DNA of 64,000 nucleotides, taken from assembly GCF_013694095.1 (NCBI RefSeq), contig NZ_JACEFB010000005.1, forward strand, positions 1 to 64,000, given 5' to 3'. Of this stretch, positions 3,260 through 58,345 are shown piece by piece (positions within the stretch are counted from its first letter, which is position 1; each line of letters begins with the position of its first letter). The position numbers and the translations under genes were made by a program. This DNA comes from Thermogemmata fonticola. GTDB lineage: Bacteria; Planctomycetota; Planctomycetia; Gemmatales; Gemmataceae. The notes beneath the pieces are model-generated. The model was not told the DNA's origin, made no database searches, and saw only the letters and a program-made list of their open reading frames with translations.

Positions 3260-3433
3260 CAATTCCCTGCCACTCCCTGGGGCCTCGCCCCTCCCGCCTC
3301 TCCGGCTTTCGTCCGGGGTGGCTTGCGGACGGCACCGCTTCGCGGCTCCCCGACCCTCTTCCCCCTCTGGTCAATACTCAGGCTTTCGATATACCGCAAT
3401 CAGGATTTCCTCCCGGAAACTCAGGAGATGGCC

Positions 3434-3862
3434 ATGCACGCACGCTTCCTTGGAGCGGTTCTCATCTTGGCGGCCAGCACCCTCGCCCTCGCTTTAGCTC
3501 AGCCCGCAGACCTCAAACGCCTCGAAGGACGCTACAAAGTCCTCATCATGGAGAAAGCGACCGGCCCGGCCCCTAAAGAGGTCATCGAAAACCTCTCCTT
3601 CATCTTCAAGGGAAACAAACTCACAGTCAAACTTGCCAACGAAGAAGAGAAGAACGCCCAGTTCAAACTCGACCCGGAAAAAGTTCCTCCCGCCATCGAC
3701 ATTTTCCCCCTCGATGGCGACTACAAGGGCAAAACCTTCCCCGGCATCTACAAAATCGACAAAGACGAAGTGACCATCGTCATGACGGAAAAAGGCGAAC
3801 GGCCCAAGGACTTCAAACCGGAAGGGGAGGCCATCCTCATCCGCCTCCGCCGCGAAAAGTAG
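3434..3862 (+). CDS. Small secreted TIGR03067-family protein
   Basis: Short exported protein of about 142 aa of a family expanded in planctomycetes (TIGR03067), function unknown. After a signal peptide ending near ALALAQ the mature part has the family pattern: an LKRLEGRYKV opening, a central FKLDPEKVPPAIDIFP segment, then GKTFPGIYKID and a final IRLRREK. Lys and Glu are abundant, unlike neighbouring proteins. AGGAG at 3423-3427 lies six bases before the ATG at 3434 but abuts the ATG at 3428, which is why the later start was chosen. Confidence 0.8.
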   Translation: MHARFLGAVLILAASTLALALAQPADLKRLEGRYKVLIMEKATGPAPKEVIENLSFIFKGNKLTVKLANEEEKNAQFKLDPEKVPPAIDIFPLDGDYKGKTFPGIYKIDKDEVTIVMTEKGERPKDFKPEGEAILIRLRREK

Positions 3863-4209
3863 CTTTCCTCCCACGACAGCGGCATCATCGCCCGCCTGTC
3901 CTCGCTAGGAAACTGCCCCACCGGCAATGTGCATCCCCCTCCCGCGCTGTTCCCGTTACCTCCTGAGCCGTTCGGCCCCTGCCGCTTCTTCTCGTTCACC
4001 GCCGTCTATTTCCCCCTGCGAGGCAGAACCCGAAGGCATCAGCACGACGCCGCCAGCTATCACCCAGGCGGAGGGAGATACCGAGCCGCAGCCGGGATTG
4101 GCCTTCCCGCCGGGGTGTGTTGTACGTTAGGCTGGTTCCAGAGGTAAGCGGGCCGTGGGCGAGTGGAGGATTTCGACGACCAGAACAAAGCCGTCCCCCG
4201 GAGCATGCT
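3863..4209. other. Intergenic region without a recognised gene
   Basis: About 350 bp between the TIGR03067-type gene and the DedA gene. Several short GC-rich frames cross it, but none has protein-like composition. It presumably carries the promoter of the dedA-kbl pair; I could not pick out a convincing -35/-10 pair. Confidence 0.5.
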
Positions 4210-4971
4210 ATGGAAGAAACCCTGAGCCAAGCCGGTACCATTCTCTTGCAAGTGCTCAGTAATCTGACCAATCCCGACGCTTGGCGGGAAGCCCTCAGTG
4301 CGCCGGGCGTCGTGGTGGCGGCCTTTTTGGTGCTCAACCTGATCGTCTTCACGGAAACCGGCCTGCTCATCGGCTTTTTTCTACCGGGGGATTCCCTCCT
4401 GGTCACTGCGGGCATCGTCGCCCACTCCGTCGGCTGGCCCGTGCACTGGCTCATCCTCACTTTGTGCTTGTCCGCGATCGTCGGCGATACGGTCGGTTAC
4501 TGGATCGGCCACAGCGCCGGGCCGGCGCTCTATCGCAAGCCGAACAGCCGCTTCTTCCGCCGCGAGCACCTCCTGGCTGCCCAGGCCTTCTACGATCGGC
4601 ATGGTGGCAAAACAATCATCATCGCTCGCTTCGTGCCGATCATCCGGACCTTTGCCCCGGTCGTCGCCGGCGCCGCCCAAATGCCCTATCGCCGCTTCTT
4701 GGCTTACAACATTTTCGGCGGGATCGGTTGGATTGTGAGCATGATACTCCTCGGCTATACACTCCACATGTGGCTGGACCCCTTGCTCCGGCCTCTCTTC
4801 GGTGATCAATTCCAGATCGCTCGACATATTGATAAAGTTGTCATCACTGTCGTCTTCATATCCATACTTCCATTATTAATAAAATGGTGGCAAAAACGCC
4901 GTGCTTTGAAAACCGCACTGGCAACCCAAAACATCTACTGCGGAGGAACACCATGCCCGCCAACACAATGA
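4210..4971 (+). CDS. DedA-family (SNARE-associated/VTT) membrane protein
   Basis: Integral inner-membrane protein of 253 aa. DedA proteins act in membrane lipid homeostasis (for example undecaprenyl-phosphate recycling) and envelope stress; the substrate here cannot be told. Diagnostic segments are [13 protein letters not shown] after the first hydrophobic stretch, GHSAGPALY, and [18 protein letters not shown] with the conserved Arg and Pro, then Trp-containing hydrophobic segments to the C terminus. The ATG at 4210 gives a natural DedA N terminus. The 3' end overlaps the start of kbl by 19 bp in another frame, suggesting translational coupling. Confidence 0.9.
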
Positions 4972-7480: not shown

Positions 7481-8239
7481 TCATTCTTTTCTTTGGGATT
7501 TTCGAGTTCTACTTTTGACAGGTTTTTTCAAGGATACTCCTATTTTGGGACACAGATCGGCCAGGATACAGGAATCACAGCGAGGTTTGCGAGCCTGGCA
7601 AACCTGCCGCCCGTGCAAGATGAGGCGATGGCTGAACGCGGTCCATTCGGCAGGGGGCAGCAGCTTCATCAGAGCCTGCTCAATCTTGTTTGGGTCCGTA
7701 TGGCGTGTCAGGCCGAGCCGTTGTGACAATCTTTTGACATGAGTATCGACGGTGATCCCCGGAACACCGAAGGCATCGCCTAAGACCACATTGGCGGTTT
7801 TCCGGCCGATTCCCGGCAAGGTGACGAGTTCCTCCAGGGTCCGCGGGACCTGCCCGCCGAATCGCTCCACCAATTGGGCGCAGCAGTCGCGGATGTGCCG
7901 AGCCTTGCTGCGGTAGTAGCCCGTGGGCCGGATGATCGCCTCCAATTCTCGAAGATCGGCGCGGGCAAAATCTTCCGCCGTGCGGTAGCGGGCAAACAGG
8001 CGGGGGGTGACCTGGTTGACCCGCTCATCGGTACATTGGGCCGAGAGAATGGTGGCGATCAGCAGTTGGAGGGGATTGTCGTGACGCAGGGCTGTGGAGG
8101 GCTGGGGGTAGATTTGCGCCAGGCGCTGATTGATGGCCGCGGCACGTTCGCGGACCGGGAGCAAGCGGCGGCGCGGGCGGCCGGCTCCAGGCGGCTGGGG
8201 ATCAGAAACATCCGGCACCGGGCGGATAGACTGATTCAT
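7481..8239 (-). CDS. nth: Endonuclease III (DNA glycosylase/AP lyase)
   Basis: Base-excision repair enzyme that removes oxidised pyrimidines and nicks abasic sites. The helix-hairpin-helix LPGIGRKTA carries the catalytic Lys, VDTHVKRL carries the catalytic Asp, and the C terminus has the [4Fe-4S] cysteines spaced C-x6-C-x2-C-x5-C (CQARKPRCDSCILADLC). The first 30 residues are an Arg/Pro-rich extension. It starts 37 bp after the FadB-like gene, so the two are probably co-transcribed. It is the intact counterpart of the altered Nth-like gene at 55942. Confidence 0.96.
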   Translation of the reverse strand: MNQSIRPVPDVSDPQPPGAGRPRRRLLPVRERAAAINQRLAQIYPQPSTALRHDNPLQLLIATILSAQCTDERVNQVTPRLFARYRTAEDFARADLRELEAIIRPTGYYRSKARHIRDCCAQLVERFGGQVPRTLEELVTLPGIGRKTANVVLGDAFGVPGITVDTHVKRLSQRLGLTRHTDPNKIEQALMKLLPPAEWTAFSHRLILHGRQVCQARKPRCDSCILADLCPKIGVSLKKPVKSRTRKSQRKE

Positions 8240-48907: not shown

Positions 48908-49474
48908 ACTCAAGCGCCAGACCTGCTGGTCATCGCTCGCTCTGCGGGGTGGGACCGCTCGGCGGCCGCTTCCTGCTCCGCAGGTCCTGCTCCGCAGGTG
49001 CAGCGGTTCTGCCCCTGCCCTCCCGATCATTTCTCCGCCTCCGCCCATTGACTTTGGCGCACCCCTCCTCCGCAGGGAGAATCTGGCCGAGCCGGTCCCC
49101 TGCGCAGGAGCACGCTGGCCCAGCCCGTGCCTTCCTCCGCCGAAACGATAGCGCCGGGGAACTGTTCCGGTTCTGCGCGGTCCGCCAGGCGCGATTCCAG
49201 GGGGCGCAGCCGCGCCCTCTTGCTTTTTCTCCGAGGGGAAGCCACAATACCCTCAGAGACCACCACGACCGAACGATGCTCCGGCCTGTGCGCCGCCGCG
49301 TCGGGATGTCGGGAGGCTTCCGCGGCTCGGAGGAATCGGCTTCCCCCCAGCCCTGGAGGCTTCCAGACGCCGAGGCGTGGCGGGTCAACAGGCCGGTTGT
49401 TGTTTCCATACCGCGAACGAGTTGGAGTATCGTTCTCCGAAAGGCCGCCGAGTCGAGAAAAAGGGTCATTCCCC
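48908..49474. other. Leader region upstream of nusA
   Basis: 567 bp with no gene that I can support, although rimP normally occupies this position. A long frame runs through it into nusA, but its upstream part has arginine/serine-rich, non-protein-like composition. A 14-bp tandem duplication lies at 48971. Confidence 0.5.
48971..48998. repeat. Perfect 14-bp tandem duplication
   Basis: TCCTGCTCCGCAGG twice, head to tail, 60 bp after the oxidoreductase stop codon. Confidence 0.9.
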
Positions 49475-51184
49475 ATGGCAACGACCAACAAACGCCGGGA
49501 CACAGGGCGGGAAATTTTGGAACTCGTGGAGAAACTTCACGACGAGCGCAAGGTGCCCCGCGAGACCATTCTCAACGCCATCAGCCACGCCATTCAAGTG
49601 GCCGCCGAACGCCACTTCGGCGTGGAAGAGGGCGTCCTGGTTCAAATCGATCCCGCCACGGGCCAATTGATCGCGCGCTTAGGCGACCAGGAGATCGACC
49701 CCGAAACCCTGGGCCGGATCGCTGCCCAATCGGCCAAGCAGATGATCATCCAGAAAATCCGGGAGGCGGAATCCGACACCATCTACCAGGAATTCTCCAT
49801 GAAAAAGGGGGAACTGGTGGTCGGCCAAATCGCCCGGATCGACGACGGGACCGCGATTGTCAACCTGGGCAAGCAGGAAGCGATCCTCCCCCGCAGCGAG
49901 CAGATCCCCGGCGAGACCCACCACGTGGGGGAACGGATCAAAGCGGTCATCCTGGAAGTCCGCAAGCAAGGCCAGCGGGTCAAAATCGTCCTGTCGCGCA
50001 CCCATCCGGACTTCGTCCGCGCCCTGTTCACCGAAGAAATCCCGGAGATTGAGGAACGGATCATCGACATCAAGGCAATTGCCCGCGAGGCAGGATACCG
50101 CACCAAAGTGGCCGTGGTCAGCATCGACCAGAAAGTGGACTGCGTCGGGGCGTGTGTTGGAGTTCGCGGCAGCCGGATCAAGAACATCACCGATGAACTC
50201 AACGGCGAGCGGATCGACATCGTCCGCTGGAATGAATCGCTGCAAATCCTCATCCCCAACGCACTGCAACCGGCGCAAATTTCGGAGGTGTTCACCTACC
50301 CCCGCTTGGGCCGGGCCATTGTCCTGGTCACCGATGACCAACTTTCCCTGGCCATCGGGCGCCGCGGCCAGAACGTCCGCCTGGCTTCCAAACTCGTCGG
50401 CTGGGACATCGAAATCCTGACCCATGATGAACTGGCCGAGACCCTCGAACGAGCCGAACGCTGGTTCGGCCAACTCCCCCACGCCAGCCCCGAACTGACC
50501 ACCGCTTTGATCGAGGAAGGCTTCCTCTCGTACAACGACATCAGCTTGATCGATGCCCAGGAGCTAGCCGAGTTTACCGGCCTGACGCTCGAACAAGCGG
50601 AAGACGTCGTCCTGTATGCGGAAGAGTACGCCGAGGAAATGGAGCGTAGCGTCGATGAGGAACGGCGGGCCGCCACAGAAGCCGCCGAACAACAGGCCTA
50701 TGCCTCGGCAGGGGCGGAGGAGACGGTGTCGGTCGAGTCCGCCGGCGGAGAAAGCCAACTCCCAGCTCCAGCGAGCGCATCGCTGGAAGTGTCGCTTGAC
50801 GGACAGCAATCCGCCCCTGCGACGGTCTCTGCCGATACCGCTGACGACTCCGTGACATCTGAGGAAACACCATCCTACGCCGAAGAGACGCCTGCACTCC
50901 CCGGAGAGGAGGCCGGGCAGGAGGGGGAATACGCGGTTGGGGAAACGGCAACCCCGCCGAGTGTGGCCGAAGCCGATGAGCAGACCTTCGCGGAAGCGGC
51001 AGATTCCCTCCTCTCGGCGGCAGATTCCGCCCGGACCCAGGCTAGCGATGCGGAAATCGGAGGACCCTCTCCGGGTTCAGATGGCGACAGCGGGGGTGAA
51101 ACCGGGCCGCCGGTTTCCTCTGAGTTCCACCTCCCCGAACCCGTTACTTCCCGGAAGGAGGCGGAAGCCCCACCGGCATCCTGA
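49475..51184 (+). CDS. nusA: Transcription termination/antitermination protein NusA
   Basis: 569-aa RNA-polymerase-binding factor controlling pausing and termination. Domains: N-terminal RNAP-binding domain (1-110), S1 domain (GELVVGQIARIDDGTAIVNLG), KH1 (GVRGSRIKNITDEL), KH2 (AIGRRGQNVRLASKLVGWDI near residue 294), then a helix-hairpin-helix-like segment (LIEEGFLSYNDISLIDAQEL). The last 170 residues or so are an Ala/Glu/Ser/Pro-rich acidic tail, longer than in most NusA. First of nusA-infB-ylxP-rbfA, but with neither rimP before it nor ylxR after it. Confidence 0.96.
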   Translation: MATTNKRRDTGREILELVEKLHDERKVPRETILNAISHAIQVAAERHFGVEEGVLVQIDPATGQLIARLGDQEIDPETLGRIAAQSAKQMIIQKIREAESDTIYQEFSMKKGELVVGQIARIDDGTAIVNLGKQEAILPRSEQIPGETHHVGERIKAVILEVRKQGQRVKIVLSRTHPDFVRALFTEEIPEIEERIIDIKAIAREAGYRTKVAVVSIDQKVDCVGACVGVRGSRIKNITDELNGERIDIVRWNESLQILIPNALQPAQISEVFTYPRLGRAIVLVTDDQLSLAIGRRGQNVRLASKLVGWDIEILTHDELAETLERAERWFGQLPHASPELTTALIEEGFLSYNDISLIDAQELAEFTGLTLEQAEDVVLYAEEYAEEMERSVDEERRAATEAAEQQAYASAGAEETVSVESAGGESQLPAPASASLEVSLDGQQSAPATVSADTADDSVTSEETPSYAEETPALPGEEAGQEGEYAVGETATPPSVAEADEQTFAEAADSLLSAADSARTQASDAEIGGPSPGSDGDSGGETGPPVSSEFHLPEPVTSRKEAEAPPAS

Positions 51185-51234: not shown

Positions 51235-51394
51235 CGTCCAAACCGGCCTTTTCAAGGATGCACGGTCGATTACAATACTACACACTTACCAAGCTGTCAT
51301 GTGTGAGGCGACGCACCCGTGTCCACCCGGACACAGGGAACTGGTACAATAGGGAAAAGGGGTCGTCCGGTTCTCGATCCCGAAGGAGATGCGC

Positions 51395-54300
51395 TTGTCC
51401 AACCCGCCAACGAAAGAGAAAGACACCAAAGGCACCAAAGAAGCCAAAGAAAAGACGACGAAGATTCGGGTCTTCACTCTCGCCAAGGAGTTGGGCGTGG
51501 AGTCGAAGACTTTGCTGGATTTTTGCCACGAGTTAGGCTTTACGAGCATCACGAACCAATTGAGCGGTTTGGAACCTCAGCAGGCGGAAGCCTTGCGCGA
51601 ACGGGTCAAAAAAGGTCCGAAGCGCCCGTCGAGCGCCATCCCCACACCCGCAGCGGCTCCGAAACCGGCCATCCCTCCGACAGTCCCCCCGGTAGGCGGT
51701 AAAGTCGCAACGCTGCGGCGGCCGAAACCGCCGACTCCCTCCACTCAGGCTGCGCCGCCCGCCGCTCCAGCAGCTCCCTCCGTACCGAGTCCATCCGCCG
51801 CCTCAGCTCCTCCCGCAACTTCCACGGCCGCCCCTCCAACGGCCGCTCCTGCGACGGCTCCGCCCGGAGGCGTAACTCCTTCCCCCGCGGCTCCGGGAGC
51901 ACCGAAAGCACCGGCGGCTGCTCCGGCGGCGGCAGGGCAAGCCCCGGCCCCTCCGGCAGCCGTGGCAGGAAGCGTAGCCGCCCCCACGACTCCGCCGTCC
52001 GCCCCCTCCGAGATTTCCGCTCCGGCAGCTTCCACGACCGCGGCCAGCAGTGTCAGCTCCCCTCCGGGAGCTTCGGCCGCCCCCAGCCCCACACCCGCCG
52101 CCAGCTCAATCCCCTCGGCGACCGGCGGCAGTGAGACGGCAAGTCCACCTCCAGCGGTTGCCACAACACCCCCGCCCGCCGCAGGACAGATACCGGCGAA
52201 CGTGGTTCCGCCCCTCTCTGTTTCCAGCGGCGGTATTCGCAACCTGAATGTGCCCCTCGGCGGGCGCCCTCCGACCCTCCACCCGCCCCGGCCGTCCGCG
52301 GCACGAACCGACTCAGGAGCACCCCCCAGCGGTCCGGAGACACGTGGGCCAGCAGGAGCGCCGCGACCCACACCCTCTGCTCCCCCGCCGGTTTCGCCCC
52401 CCGCTTCTTCCGCGCCGCCGAGCGGTCCGAAATCGGCACCACCGGGAGTCTCGCCGACTTCCTCCCCGCCGGCGACAGCCGATTCGGGAACCACCCCAGC
52501 CAGCCGGCGGGCTGAAGTGCTCAACCGGCCCCCGCAACCGCCGCCGCCGAAGATCATCGCCCCTCAGCGCACACCCGGTGCTGCGCCGCCAGCGGGCAAA
52601 GGGAGCGGACCTGGAACGTCCCGGCCTCCAGCGCCTCCCAAGCCGAGTCCCGGCCAACCGATGAAGCTGACGGAGGAGATGATCCGCCGCCTGCGCGAGG
52701 CCAGCGCGCGCGGCCAGCGCGTCAATCTGCAAGAGCTAGCCCGCCAGCAACCCGCCGCACCCCCGACTCGCCCGGAGCCAGGCCGGCTGCCCTCCCGGCC
52801 CAGCGGCCGCGGACCCGCTCTTCTGGATGAGGACGAGGAGGAACGCAGCCGCAAAAAAGCGGGCGGCCTCATCGGACGGGAAGCCCGACAGAAAGGCCGC
52901 GGAGACCGCAGCCACGACATCGACGAACACGCCATCATTGTCGGTCCCGGCGGCAAGGTGGACATCATCGAGGAACGATGGGGGTCGCGCCGCGGTCCAC
53001 GGGCTGCCCGACTTCTCAAAGCCCGCCGTGAACAAGAACAGCGCAAAATCGAAGGACCCGTCGAAGTCACCCTGCCGCTCACTGTCCGCAGCTTCTCCGA
53101 AGCCATCGGAATGAAGCTCAACGAGGTGATCCAGCGCCTGCTCAAAGAAACGGGACGGCTTTACGCCGCCAATGCTGTTGTGGACTTCGATACGGCGGCT
53201 CTCATCGCCCTGGAAAAGAATATTGAACTCATCGCCAAACAGCCGGAAACCAAGGAAGACCAGCTTCTCCGCCGCTACCGGGAGATGCTGGAGAACGTCG
53301 ATCCCGCCCGCCTCAAGCCCCGCCCGCCGATCGTCACCATCATGGGGCACGTGGACCACGGCAAAACCACCCTCCTGGACAAGATCCGCCAGATGTTCGG
53401 CCTGCAATCCGACGTGGCGGCGAGCGAAGCCGGCGGCATCACCCAGGTGCTGCGCGCCTGGTCCGTCAAACGCGAAGTCTTGACCGAAAAAGACGGCCAG
53501 GAGGTCATAGAGGAGCGGTACATCACCTTCCTGGATACGCCGGGCCACGAAGCCTTCACCAAGATGCGGGCGCGCGGCGCCAATGTCACCGACATCGCCG
53601 TGATTGTCGTGGCCGCCACCGATGGCGTCATGCCGCAAACCCAGGAAGCCATTAGCCACGCGCGCGCCGCCAACGTCAAAATCATCGTGGCGATCAACAA
53701 GATCGACCTGCCGAATGCCAATGTGGAACGCACACGCCGACAACTCTATCAGGAAGGGCTTGTGCCTGACAACATGGGCGGCGACGTCATCTTCGTCGAA
53801 ACCAGCGCCGTCACAGGCCAGGGCATCAGCGACCTGCTCGATGCCATCATCCTCGTGGCCGAGGTCGAGGAGTGGAAAGCGGACCCGGACCGGCCCGCAG
53901 CGGGGACCTGCCTGGAAGCCTGCATGAGCGCCGATGAAGGAGTCCTCGCCACGCTCTTGATCCAACAGGGGACCCTCCACCGCGGGGACATTGTGCTCTG
54001 CGGCAGCGCCTACGGCCGGGTCCGTGCCATGTACAACGACCTGGGCCAGCCGATCCAGCAAGCCGGCCCCAGCATGCCCGTCCGCATTACCGGCCTCAAC
54101 CGCGTGCCCAATGCCGATGACCCCTTCTACGTCACCGAAGACCTCTCCGAAGCCCGCGAAATCGCCGAAGCCCGCGAACAGAAAGAACGCGAAGCCTCTT
54201 TGACACGCTTCGTCGCCCCCAAAGACCTGAGCGAACTGACCGCCGCCCAAAGCAAAGCCCAGATCACCGAACTGAAAGTCATCTTGAAGGCCGACGCCCG

Positions 54301-54898
54301 CGGCTCCATCGAAGCCATCCGCAAGGAACTGGAAAAACTGGTGCACGAAGAAGCCCGCGTCCGCATCCTGCATGCCGCGGTGGGCGCCATCACCGAAACC
54401 GATGTGCAACTGGCCCTGACCAGCCCGCACGATACCCTGGTGCTGGGCTTCAACGTCACCGCCGACGATGCCGCCCTCAAGCTCGCCGAAGAGCGCGGCA
54501 TTGCCCTGCGCGAATACGACATCATCTACAAGCTCACCGAGGATGTCAAAGCCGCTCTGGAAGGCCGCCTCAAGCCCGTGGAAGAAATCGTGCACCTGGG
54601 CCGAGCCGTGGTCCGGCAAGTGTTCAAACTGGGCAAAGTCGGCACCGTGGCCGGCTGCTACGTCACCAGTGGCGTGATCGAACGCAATGCCCGCGTCCGC
54701 GTGATCCGCAATGGCGTCGTGGTCTATCCCCCCAGCGACAAAGTCGCCACCCTCGAAAGCCTCAAACGGTTCAAAGACGATGTGCGCGAAGTCCGCGAAG
54801 GGTTCGAATGCGGCTTGAAAATCAGCGGCTACGACGACGTCAAAGTGGATGATGTCATCGAAGCCTACAAAGTGGAGGTCCGCCAACGCAGTCTCTAA
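51395..54898 (+). CDS. infB: Translation initiation factor IF-2
   Basis: About 1167 aa, much longer than E. coli IF-2 (890 aa). An N-terminal IF2_N helix domain ([20 protein letters not shown]) is followed by about 370 residues of Pro/Ala/Ser-rich linker (51600-52650), a second IF2_N-type segment ([20 protein letters not shown]), and the G domain with GHVDHGKT near residue 650, DTPGHEAF and NKIDLPNA. Domains II, III and IV follow. AAGGAG abuts the ATG at 51389, leaving no spacing, but lies six bases before an in-frame TTG at 51395, so the TTG is my preferred start. Confidence 0.95.
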
Positions 54899-54946: not shown

Positions 54947-55240
54947 ATGGTTATCGGTTCGCTCAAGGCGCGGTTGCTGGTCCGGGAATCTCGCACTCTC
55001 AAGGACAAGCGGCGAGTGGTGCGCAGCATCCTCGATCGCCTGCGGGACGGCTTCAATGTCTCCGCTGCCGAGGTGGACACCCACGACGATGTCAAAGTCG
55101 CCACCCTGGCCTTCGCCACCGTGGGCTTCGACATGGCCGCAGTGCAACATGTTCTGCAACAAATTTCCGAAGCCCTCCGCCGCCATCCCGTCGCAGAGTA
55201 CCTCGGCGGGGAAAGCCGCGTCGGCTCGGAGATCGTCTGA
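54947..55240 (+). CDS. ylxP: DUF503 family protein (YlxP)
   Basis: 97-aa protein of the DUF503 family, usually encoded between infB and rbfA and suspected to act in ribosome or RNA metabolism. The family pattern is clear: LLVRESRTLKDKRRVVRSIL, a central FNVSAAEVDTHDDVKVATLAF and a C-terminal VGFDMAAVQHVLQQI. It starts 49 bp after infB and is followed by rbfA after 22 bp, matching conserved synteny. Confidence 0.9.
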   Translation: MVIGSLKARLLVRESRTLKDKRRVVRSILDRLRDGFNVSAAEVDTHDDVKVATLAFATVGFDMAAVQHVLQQISEALRRHPVAEYLGGESRVGSEIV

Positions 55241-55262: not shown

Positions 55263-55739
55263 ATGAAAACCTTCCGCCTCGCTCGCGTCGCTGAAGTCAT
55301 CCGAGAAGCCGCTGCCAAAGCCATTCTCTTTGAACTCAAAGACCCACGGGTCAAAAATGTCACCGTCACACGCGTGGAAGTCTCCGCCGACCTCCAGCAC
55401 GCCAAAATCTACGTCTCCATCATGGGCAGCGAAAAGGAACAGAAACTGACCATGCACGGCCTCAAAAGCGCCACCGGCTTCATCCAAAGCCGCGTCGCCC
55501 AGCAACTCACCACCCGCTATGTTCCGCGGATCAACTTCGTCCTCGACCAAGGAGTCAAACGCAGCATTGCCGTCTCCCAGTTGCTCCAAGCCGAACGTCA
55601 ACGGCGCCAAGAGGGGGAACCGCCCGCCCCCAACGATGAGGAAGCCCTGACCCCCGACGACCTCGAAGCCCGCGAGGAAATCCACGAACCGAAGGCCGAA
55701 CGCGATGCCACCGATCGGCTGCCCCCGCCAGCGTCCTGA
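55263..55739 (+). CDS. rbfA: Ribosome-binding factor A
   Basis: 158-aa KH-fold protein that assists late 16S rRNA processing and cold adaptation. Typical sequence: RVAEVIREAAAKAILFELKDPRVKNVTVTRVEVSADLQHAKIYVSIMG, then FIQSRVAQQLTTRYVPRINFVLDQGVKRS. A charged Glu/Asp/Pro-rich tail of about 45 residues follows. The adenine-rich ATG at 55263 sits behind GCGGAGGA. Last recognised member of the nusA-rbfA cluster. Confidence 0.94.
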   Translation: MKTFRLARVAEVIREAAAKAILFELKDPRVKNVTVTRVEVSADLQHAKIYVSIMGSEKEQKLTMHGLKSATGFIQSRVAQQLTTRYVPRINFVLDQGVKRSIAVSQLLQAERQRRQEGEPPAPNDEEALTPDDLEAREEIHEPKAERDATDRLPPPAS

Positions 55740-55941
55740 TGCGCGCCGTCCCTTATCCCGGACCCGTGCCGACGCATGGGAGGCTTCCGCCGCGGCAAGA
55801 GGCTAACTGTCCAGCGCTGCTGCACCACCGGGAGCGAACCCCAGGGGGGAACGCCGAAGACAACGCCGCCGCCTAGAAAATCACGGACCGTCCGACCCCA
55901 GGAAGCACGGATGATACCCAGAGGAAGGGAGAGAGTGCATC

Positions 55942-56676
55942 ATGCCGGTGATCACAAACAAACAGCAGATGCTCCAGCATGTCCAAAACGTTCTGCGCAA
56001 GAAGTTTGCCAGCGCCGTGGAGAAATGCCCGTCGGGCCGGCCTTTGCTGGAAGAGCTGATTTATGCCATTTGCCGGGAAAACACGACGCCCGCGGCAGCG
56101 TCCGCCGCTTACGAGCGGCTGGTCAAATCTTTCATCGACTGGAACGAGGTCCGCGTCAGCACAGTCTCGGAAGTGGCAGAAGCCCTGCATCCCTTGCCAG
56201 CGGCGGGAGTCCGAGCACGGCGGATCATCGGCCTGTTGCAGAAAGTCTTTGAGGAACGCTACAGCTTCTCCCTGGAAGACCTGGAGAAAAAGGGGCTGAA
56301 ACAGGCCGCCAAGCAACTCTCCCGTTACAAGAATGACGTGACGGACTATACCGTGGCCTGGGCGATTCAACGCTTCCTCAACGGCCACGCCATCCCGCTG
56401 GACGATGCCACGCTGCGCGTTCTTCAGCGGCTGGGCATCCTCGAAGAGGAGATCGACCCCGAACAAATGGAATCGCTCCGCGGCACCGTCGAACACGTGG
56501 TGACCAAGGCGCGCGGGCCGGAGTTCACCGACCTGATCAGCCTGCTGGCCCACGAGTGGTGCGTAGAAAATCATCCGCAATGCAGCCACTGCCCCCTCCG
56601 CGGCGATTGCCCCACAGGCGTGCAAAACACCACGGGGCGAAAGCCGGATTCCCGCGCGCGCAAAAGCCGGAGTTAG
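55942..56676 (+). CDS. Endonuclease III-like protein with the catalytic Lys replaced
   Basis: 244-aa HhH-GPD superfamily protein. It keeps the C-terminal Fe-S cysteines in Nth spacing, C-x6-C-x2-C-x5-C (CVENHPQCSHCPLRGDC), and an Asp where Nth has its catalytic Asp (AIPLDDATLRVL versus AVDTH). The hairpin LPGVGRKTA is replaced by YKNDVTDYTVA, so the lyase Lys position is Tyr. It is therefore at most a monofunctional glycosylase, or a DNA-structure-binding relative. The typical Nth gene is at 7481. It follows rbfA by 202 bp on the same strand. Confidence 0.75.
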   Translation: MPVITNKQQMLQHVQNVLRKKFASAVEKCPSGRPLLEELIYAICRENTTPAAASAAYERLVKSFIDWNEVRVSTVSEVAEALHPLPAAGVRARRIIGLLQKVFEERYSFSLEDLEKKGLKQAAKQLSRYKNDVTDYTVAWAIQRFLNGHAIPLDDATLRVLQRLGILEEEIDPEQMESLRGTVEHVVTKARGPEFTDLISLLAHEWCVENHPQCSHCPLRGDCPTGVQNTTGRKPDSRARKSRS

Positions 56677-56763
56677 GCCGCTTTCGCCTTTCCTCTGCCG
56701 CCGCTCCGGGAGATCGGCGCTCCCTGAGAACCGCCTCCTCAAGGATCGGCGTCAAACGGCCCT

Positions 56764-58218
56764 CTAAGGAATCGGCGTCCATTCCCGGCCTTCGGCCCGC
56801 AAAAGGGCCTCAGCCCCCGTCGGACCTTGCGAGCCGATGGGATACTCTTCGGGCGGCGGCGCTTCGGGGTCTTCCGCGGCGGCAATGATCGGGTCCAGGA
56901 TTTCCCACGCCCGTTCGATCTCATCCGCCCGCATGAACAGGGCCGCATCCCCTTGCAACGCATCGAGCAGCAATCGCTCGTAGGCCTCCGGAATGGTGCG
57001 ATCGGCATAGGCTTGGCGATAGTCGAAGGCCAAGTCCCGCGGTTGCAATCGCACCCCTTCCACATCCGGCACTTTGGTTTGAAAATTGAGGCGAATCCCC
57101 TCGTTCGGTTGAATCACCAGGGTAATCCGATTGCACTGGAGTTTTTCCCCCGGCGGCAGCGAAAACATCAGGTGCGAGGGGCAACGGAATTGAATGACCA
57201 CTTCGCTGTAACGGCTCTTGAGGCCTTTGCCGGAGCGCAGATAAAAGGGCACCCCGCGCCAGCGCCGGTTCTCGATCTCCAACCGGAGCGCGGCGTAGGT
57301 GGGCGTTCGGCTGTCAGGACGGACACCGTGTTCACAGCGATACCCCCGGTACTGGCCCAAAGCGACGGCTTGGGAAAGCCTCGCCTCGCTCCAGGGAGCA
57401 ATCGCTTCGAGGACCTTCATCTTCTCGTTGCGCAAGTTCTCGGCGGTAAAGCGGGTCGGATCTTCAATGGCGACCATCGTCAGGATTTGCAGCATGTGAT
57501 TTTGCATCATGTCCCGGAGAACACCGGCTTTGTCGTAATAGGCGCCCCGGCGGCCTACCGTCCCCCGTTCCGCCACGGTGATCTGCACGTGATCAATGTA
57601 CTGGTAATTCCACAGCGGCTCAAAGAGGGTGTTGGCAAAGCGAAAGACGAGGATGTTTTGCACCGTGTCCTTGCCGAGATAATGGTCGATGCGGTAGATC
57701 TGCTCTTCCCGCCAGTAGCGATGCAAGGCGGCATTGAGGGCCGCGGCACTGGCACGATCCTGGCCGAAGGGTTTCTCGATCACCAGTCGCCGGAAACCGC
57801 CGTTTTCGTGATGGAAGCCCGCCTCCCCCAAGCGGAGGCTCAGCGGGGCGTACAATTCGGGCGCCACCGCTAGATAATACAAGCGCTGGCCGCCGGAGTC
57901 CTCCTGTTGGCTCAACCATTGGGCCAGAGCCTGAATTCCCGCCGCTTGGGTCACGTCGGCCGCCAGATAGTGCAGGCGTTGCGCAAAACTGGTCCAACGC
58001 AGAGGGTCAAAGGCTTCGCCGCCGTTTTCATCGCGCAGGCGATCCGCCAGATATTCCCGGAAGCTGTCGTCCGTGTAGGCTGTACGTGAGACCCCCAACA
58101 CGCGCAACTGTTCCGGCAAGCGCCCGCGGAGATCGAGCTGATACAGTGCCGGAATCAGTTTGCGTGCCGTGAGGTCTCCCGAGGCGCCAAAAATGACCAG
58201 GGTCAAGGGTGTTGCCAT
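56764..58218 (-). CDS. zwf: Glucose-6-phosphate 1-dehydrogenase
   Basis: 484-aa enzyme of the oxidative pentose phosphate (or Entner-Doudoroff) pathway that makes 6-phosphogluconolactone and NADPH. The NADP motif [16 protein letters not shown] opens the protein. [10 protein letters not shown], the active-site RIDHYLGKD, and [18 protein letters not shown] are all conserved. The ATG at 58218 is preceded by GGGAGAA at nine bases; a longer start at 58257 adds 13 residues. It diverges from purK. Confidence 0.97.
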
Positions 58219-58345
58219 TTCGCGTTTTTCTCCCACATTGTTCCGTGACACTCCCATGTTATGAAAGCCATGAGGAGCTGACCGGCGGGGTCAGCCGGCC
58301 TTGGGAGCATTCCGAAGGTACCACTGAACCGACTGATCTGTAACC

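Follow-up and report, generated by a model that had tools for sequence, protein, structure and literature searches.

The DNA analysed here, referred to as the window, is a stretch of 64,000 nucleotides from the planctomycete Thermogemmata fonticola (contig NZ_JACEFB010000005.1, positions 1 to 64,000), the genome of which amounts to 4.8 Mb in 61 contigs and is 97% complete. The main finding concerns a gene for an endonuclease III (EndoIII)-like protein that directly follows rbfA, and the features of the window that bear on it are listed below.

7481..8239, minus strand: canonical endonuclease III (nth), included for comparison (TIGR01083, 274.2 bits; cut-off 211.7)
49466..51184, plus strand: nusA, start codon provisional (TIGR01953, 339.6 bits)
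51389..54898, plus strand: infB, translation initiation factor IF-2 (TIGR00487, 681.8 bits)
54947..55240, plus strand: DUF503 gene, between infB and rbfA (PF04456, 87.7 bits)
55263..55739, plus strand: rbfA, 30S ribosome-binding factor A, directly 5' of the gene of interest (TIGR00082, 98.4 bits; cut-off 51.15; PF02033)
55942..56676, plus strand: the gene of interest, encoding a predicted lyase-dead endonuclease III-like protein of 244 amino acids, ATG start
56137..56160, plus strand: codons of the DWNEVRVS motif (residues 66-73), the hallmark of the DWNEVRVS family
56317..56367, plus strand: helix-hairpin-helix relic (residues 126-142) without the hairpin GxG, in which Y136 (56347-56349) occupies the position of the AP-lyase Lys
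56401..56403, plus strand: D154, counterpart of the catalytic Asp (Nth D138)
56560..56610, plus strand: four Cys (C207, C214, C217 and C223) of a presumed [4Fe-4S] cluster
56764..58257, minus strand: zwf, glucose-6-phosphate dehydrogenase, a convergent neighbour outside the conserved block

An earlier reading of the letters (the sequence-only reading) had placed the gene beside a nusA-infB-rbfA cluster and had noted a canonical nth at 7481. The TIGR models show that the cluster, which also holds the DUF503 gene, and the nth gene are both real. Besides these, the genome has a MutY-like gene on another contig, and a fourth HhH-GPD match listed for it scores below the cut-off. At the locus itself, no promoter-like sites and no Rfam matches were found, and the three terminator-like sites are all on the minus strand, against 1.8 expected. 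An antisense open frame of 289 codons spans the whole gene on the minus strand (window 55873-56742) and is taken as a by-product of base composition.

The window protein was recognized weakly by the Pfam HhH-GPD model (PF00730), with a passing score of 28.1 bits at a cut-off of 26.2 (E 2.7e-6), and the same model matched merely 3 of 39 DWNEVRVS family members at E <= 0.01. The Pfam EndIII_4Fe-2S model remained below its cut-off (13.3 versus 20.5 bits), as did all NCBIfam matches, the best of which were to the DR2438 monofunctional glycosylase model and to mutY. The MutY model TIGR01084 reached 33.6 bits at a cut-off of 286.5, which fails to identify the protein as MutY, and the Nth model TIGR01083 was absent from the matches listed up to an E-value of 10. 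A relative in Gemmataceae bacterium SKYG125 is 80% identical to the window protein. AlphaFold2 with a two-sequence input (the window protein and L035) gave no usable model (mean pLDDT 44.1, pTM 0.26). The protein belongs to the rbfA-linked DWNEVRVS family as defined here, by its NExR motif, its clade and its place after rbfA.

The register of the active site was checked by profile alignment to the solved structures of Deinococcus EndoIII-1 (4unf), G. stearothermophilus EndoIII (1p59) and ROS1 (7yhq), in which Y136 aligns with the lyase Lys and D154 with the catalytic Asp. As a positive control, the same columns held the Nth-type Lys in 9 of the 9 rows alignable there (15 supplied) and D-T-H in 15 of 15. 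Since the Nth-type rows do show Lys in this control, no tested alignment restores a Lys in the window protein, and the controls and structure alignments together confirm the Tyr-for-Lys observation of the sequence-only reading. Its remark that some MutY enzymes carry Tyr at this position is borne out by the planctomycete MutY-type rows, with Tyr in 9 of the 9 aligned (12 supplied, including E. coli MutY); taken alone, this Tyr is compatible with a MutY-like monofunctional enzyme. The remaining residue claims of that reading stand as well: the hairpin LPGVGRKTA (in general form LPG[IV]GRKTA) has given way to KNDVTDYTV, D154 is kept, and the four Cys C207, C214, C217 and C223 have the spacing C-x6-C-x2-C-x5-C that identifies the Fe-S ligands at the sequence level. 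D154 is followed by D155-A156 and not by Thr-His. Judged by these residues, the window protein is Nth-like and cannot be a normal bifunctional lyase. In a further planctomycete HhH-GPD group (L228, L234, L240 and L243), Glu was observed at the lyase-Lys position in 4 of 4 proteins, with D-A-Y replacing D-T-H.

Residues were counted in 127 family members that similarity searches with the window protein or the DWNEVRVS family profile had brought together: 85 from Gemmatales, 20 from the remaining families of the class, 6 rbfA-adjacent and 5 rbfA-near ones from other classes, and 11 others. N68 and R71 of the NExR motif were present in 127 of 127, E69 in 126 of 127, and L99 was invariant (127 of 127), a conservation that is partly favoured by sampling because the members were found by similarity search. 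The NExR motif is not present in EndoIII-1, ROS1 or the four rows of a third paralog group; the Nth and MutY rows are unalignable at those columns. Phe or Tyr occupies the lyase position in 84 of 85 Gemmatales members, and Phe does so in all 20 other class members; Lys occurs once among the 127 (L214), in a protein that has Ser at the Asp position. Gly is found at position 134 in 2 members and at position 132 in 41, so that the first glycine of the hairpin does not separate the groups cleanly. A regular-expression test of the hairpin matched 4 of 127 family members, but it also matched just 19 of 30 control paralogs, which made it too crude, and column counts were used. The Asp is kept in 85 of 85 Gemmatales and 19 of 20 other class members, in 4 of 6 rbfA-adjacent and 1 of 5 rbfA-near proteins, and in 4 of the 11 others. 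The Fe-S motif is present in 84 of 85, 0 of 20, 4 of 6, 3 of 5 and 11 of 11 members of these groups, respectively; the sole Gemmatales row without it (L208) ends with its contig, and the complete rows keep all four Cys in 84 of 84 cases. An internal tandem duplication of about 22 residues (KKGLKxAAKQxxRYF...) was seen ahead of the hairpin relic, at about residues 105-150, in L197, L203 and L207 (genera g7 and g37, which belong to the window's family), and it led to split matches in the Gemmatales genome search.

Matches to the DWNEVRVS family (E <= 1e-5) were found in 95 of 102 Gemmatales genomes and in 69 of the 71 near-complete ones. Phylum-wide, 244 of 294 sampled Planctomycetota genomes had a match at E <= 1e-3, of which the weaker ones may be other HhH-GPD proteins. 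The family was sampled here in Planctomycetota and may occur elsewhere; two scans of viral contigs found no relatives, and a contig scan with a single-protein query, which reaches close relatives only, yielded one Gemmataceae locus. A tree was built from 79 proteins, namely 44 of the 127 family members, 30 HhH-GPD proteins that Pfam detected in the window genome and in 14 further genomes of planctomycetes, E. coli Nth, MutY and AlkA, EndoIII-1 and ROS1. In this quick tree, for which one support measure was computed and in which 28 of 76 inner branches stay unresolved and three end branches are long, the DWNEVRVS family forms one clade (SH-aLRT 99) that groups with EndoIII-1 and ROS1 (96), away from Nth and MutY; the clade support covers the whole family and not its rbfA-linked subset. 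The phylogeny that the sequence-only reading had called for thus places the protein outside the Nth and MutY clades, in a clade of its own beside EndoIII-1 and ROS1, and inside none of the described glycosylase clades in the tree, from which MIG (also named in that reading) and AGOG were left out. Searches of the literature for planctomycetes together with HhH-GPD proteins found nothing, and those joining endonuclease III, Planctomycetes and rbfA found nothing beyond a Chlamydiales pangenome paper in the text that was accessible. The PVC signature protein CT421.2 was considered as an identity and set aside on size, with lengths given as about 53 to more than 80 amino acids (PMC3444138) against the 244 of the window protein.

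The place near translation-factor genes, which had been called unusual, is on the contrary a near-constant feature of the class. In 93 of the 95 Gemmatales matches, the gene shares strand and contig with rbfA and follows it at a distance of no more than 2.1 kb; the remaining two are in genomes without a detected rbfA, and one of them starts at a contig end. Sampled genomes of other families of the class place the gene after rbfA in 20 of 20 cases. The distance from the rbfA stop to the gene start ranged from -35 to 235 bp across 51 loci, with starts chosen by script, and is 202 bp in the window. The downstream side drifts: its largest shared gene family occurred in 5 of 30 Gemmatales loci, of which 27 extended for 600 bp or more on that side, and zwf adjoins the gene in one of the 30, the window itself. 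As background, the two genes that flank canonical nth in the window still do so in 20 and 18 of 30 loci, with the window included and some loci cut by contig ends. Among 60 rbfA loci from other classes, the gene was directly adjacent in three (L112, L120 and L148), within 10 kb in five (L102, L123, L136, L141 and L151), and not seen in 52, several of which are cut short by contig ends. Three further rbfA-adjacent cases from other classes (L064, L211 and L212) were found via protein search, and among the best 30 rbfA loci with 1.5 kb flanks the gene was seen in two, the window and L089, which is from the same genome as L064. Away from the main rbfA, many Gemmatales genomes show another, weak match of RbfA type (PF02033, about 22-42 bits; e.g., G009:C1:1283718-1283972 and G010:C1:698766-699029), possibly a divergent RbfA paralog.

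Two further neighbours, yebC and hisG, were searched for only after being noticed; one product of each was checked with Pfam, and the others were assigned by similarity to those. The yebC gene follows in 10 loci (L045, L055, L057, L058, L059, L102, L123, L136, L141 and L151), with the order rbfA-gene-yebC in L045, and hisG follows in L054, L060, L064, L112, L120, L148 (with one open reading frame between) and L213. The short flanks of L061, L063, L214 and L215 held none of the tested neighbours. YebC is described as a translation factor that contacts 23S rRNA (PMC12234827). The pattern suggests an old block of rbfA, the gene and hisG or yebC that was broken up outside the class. In family f46, rbfA is followed directly by hisG without an EndoIII-like gene (L066-L068, L070, L071, L073, L076, L077, L079, L081, L084, L086, L090, L092 and L093), which looks as if that gene was lost there or never entered.

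The computed traits of the protein are EndoIII-fold descent, loss of the lyase Lys, the hairpin glycines and the Thr-His, an acidic core, the NExR motif, selection and the place after rbfA, and conservation is concentrated on N68, E69, R71 and L99 rather than on the catalytic residues. The conserved position beside rbfA throughout one planctomycete class, held by a protein that lacks key parts of the repair active site, suggests a new task for an old repair fold, one that probably concerns the making or running of ribosomes. The explanation tentatively preferred here, with a chance of being right that comes close to even, is that the protein would be an EndoIII derivative, dead as a lyase, with a role in or around ribosome assembly or translation. 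Its family, found here across Planctomycetota, would descend from an endonuclease III of the EndoIII-1/ROS1 type, and would have lost its AP-lyase capacity and taken up that role. The probable target of the protein is nucleic acid, either rRNA or nascent rRNA/DNA, or a ribosome-assembly partner such as RbfA, which it would contact via a surface that bears the DWNEVRVS motif, the surface location of which is assumed. The conserved neighbours would then reflect a shared process, the motif would form a functional surface, and base excision would probably not be the main task of the protein. Such a binding role would explain the fixed place, a motif that is more constant than the catalytic residues, and the repeated loss of the lyase Lys, the hairpin, the Fe-S ligands or the Asp in genomes that keep nth; canonical nth coexists in 96 of 102 Gemmatales genomes, so that repair is already covered. 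Gene order alone, as with rbfA, yebC and hisG, does not prove a shared function. As a counterpoint, the retention of the four Cys and D154 in Gemmatales, and of Q143, H149 and P152 along with D154 in the class, goes beyond what a pure scaffold requires.

This counterpoint bears on the strongest alternative, a monofunctional DNA glycosylase with altered specificity, in which D154 would activate water or base as in MutY, Tyr or Phe would replace the Lys, the Fe-S cluster would be structural and the place after rbfA would be inherited gene order; overall, this alternative is judged rather unlikely. Within the class, D154 is conserved in 104 of 105 members together with Q143 (98), H149 (102) and P152 (105), a set that is the strongest evidence for some remaining chemistry or ligand binding, and both the complete Fe-S ligands of Gemmatales and the Tyr shared with the planctomycete MutY-type rows are in line with a glycosylase. 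The nearest curated model, that of the monofunctional DNA glycosylase DR2438 (NF053634), also favours a glycosylase and matches 32 of 39 DWNEVRVS family members (E <= 0.01), but its score for the window protein (35.1 bits) is far under the cut-off of 400. DrEndoIII1 is described as acting mostly as a monofunctional glycosylase, with Arg61 as the counterpart of the Gln that other EndoIIIs insert into DNA (PMC9268735). Among the 105 class members the aligned position 47, Asn in the window protein, holds Gly, Asn, Asp, Ala, Ser, Glu or Arg but in no case Gln, which speaks against a glycosylase; Gln occurs in 2 of the 22 members outside the class. The loss of the hairpin GxG argues in the same direction, as does the absence of Thr-His after the Asp position in 127 of 127 members. 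For DrEndoIII3, Thr-His loss was proposed as a cause of inactivity, and restoring Thr-His gave no activity (PMC9268735). Outside the class, the Asp is kept in just 9 of 22 members, and since it is so often gone there, glycosylase chemistry is not what unites the whole family. A glycosylase would thus account well for the Asp set of the class, but not for the gene position or the Asp-less relatives.

The charge of the protein adds a weak argument against a glycosylase. Over the 170 residues ahead of the Fe-S region, the window protein has a pI of 5.3. The median is 5.4 among Gemmatales members (range 4.7-8.9) and 5.1 among the rest of the class (4.6-6.1), compared with 9.75 (8.4-10.4) in 12 planctomycete Nth-like paralogs, two of 14 rows having been dropped for want of the cysteine pattern. 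As the same stretch is close to neutral in E. coli Nth (7.2) and in D. radiodurans EndoIII-1 (7.3), the family differs only modestly from its nearest known relative and the acidic core counts for little.

The C-terminal tails bear on a second alternative, a nucleoid or DNA-architectural protein with a binding-only EndoIII fold and, in several lineages, a lysine-rich tail resembling histone H1, which appears improbable. Lys and Arg make up a median fraction of 0.43 of the final 60 residues in the 20 class members from outside Gemmatales, and K-rich tails also occur in L102, L120, L123 and L148, as this alternative would have it; the window protein and the other Gemmatales members are without such a tail (median 0.17, maximum 0.22). 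Moreover, basic tails are common in RNA-binding proteins too. The tail of L102 (G264; protein 3415-4716 of the reversed locus) is a very long one of the AAAKKAAAK type, given partly as X in the record. A correlation between loss of the Fe-S motif and a basic tail was considered (tails in 15 of 25 members without the motif versus 4 of 102 with it), but was abandoned once kinship was allowed for, since there are only 3 independent pairs and the sign test is uninformative, so that the link lends the nucleoid alternative no support. On a 49-member tree, loss of the motif takes at least 4 changes and basic tails take 9. Precedents in its favour are DrEndoIII3, which shows no activity on common substrates and yet has the highest affinity for damaged DNA of the three Deinococcus enzymes (PMC9268735), and the condensed nucleoid described for G. 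obscuriglobus (PMC8567305). Finally, the gene might be a functionless passenger decaying within the rbfA operon. This would fit the observation that several lineages lost catalytic and Fe-S residues, but is very improbable given the invariant motif residues in 127 members, the retention in 69 of 71 near-complete Gemmatales genomes and the low dN/dS. Against the nearest relative L035, dN/dS is 0.073 at a dS of 1.8, which is close to saturation; the values are 0.139 for rbfA, 0.052 for the DUF503 gene and 0.037 for the C-terminal 400 residues of infB. Such purifying selection shows that the gene is not a chance frame.

The link with ribosome assembly or translation remains the preferred reading for the window protein, and ribosome-linked and glycosylase roles can both hold in different branches. 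A more far-reaching version, possible but on the whole doubtful, is that the family would constitute a new Planctomycetota factor of ribosome assembly or translation derived from a repair glycosylase, with or without Fe-S cluster and basic tail, the NExR surface of which would read rRNA or dock on RbfA or the 30S subunit. To our knowledge, DNA glycosylase folds that departed from base excision are rarely documented. Across the phylum, the family presents a graded series, with Asp and Fe-S, without Fe-S, and without Asp, which has one common motif and many translation-linked neighbours. If the ribosome link is true, a lineage-specific ribosome-biogenesis factor would be added for Planctomycetota; if the protein is a glycosylase, it would be one with a remodelled pocket. 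Under either of these explanations the label 'endonuclease III' would mislead. In one planctomycete species, 151 of 748 essential coding sequences are given as having unknown function, and the accessible main text of that paper, on the essential genes of P. limnophila, holds no mention of rbfA or an endonuclease (PMC10632474).

Among known systems, Deinococcus radiodurans EndoIII-1 (4unf, 8a5c and 8a5f) is the best solved-structure match to the family profile (8a5f, E 3.9e-23). This enzyme, which we take to be DR2438, the protein of NF053634, has DW at positions 66-67, the Asp and the Fe-S ligands in common with the DWNEVRVS family and stands beside it in the tree together with ROS1 (SH-aLRT 96). 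Unlike the family, it keeps the Lys, the GVG hairpin and D-T-H, and has D, A and T at the positions of N68, E69 and R71. The glycosylase domain of the plant DNA demethylase ROS1 (7yhq and 7yho) shares the Fe-S ligands and the Asp, has DWKAIR where the family has DWNEVR, and belongs to the same unresolved fork as EndoIII-1; it differs in its lyase Lys and its eukaryotic origin, ROS1 being a large multidomain bifunctional lyase. MutY resembles the window protein in the Tyr at the lyase position (planctomycete MutY-type rows), the Asp and the Fe-S cysteines, but lies on a separate branch and mostly has G-N after the Asp, where the window protein has D-A. The G-T mismatch glycosylase MIG (1kea), which has Tyr at the lyase position and keeps a canonical hairpin, was matched by the Gemmatales profile with an E-value of 1.6e-6. 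The canonical endonuclease III of the same genome shares the fold family, the Asp and the Fe-S ligands with the window protein, but belongs to a separate clade, retains the Lys, the hairpin and D-T-H, and is basic, with a pI of 9.8 over the comparable 170 residues and of 10.4 over a longer stretch.
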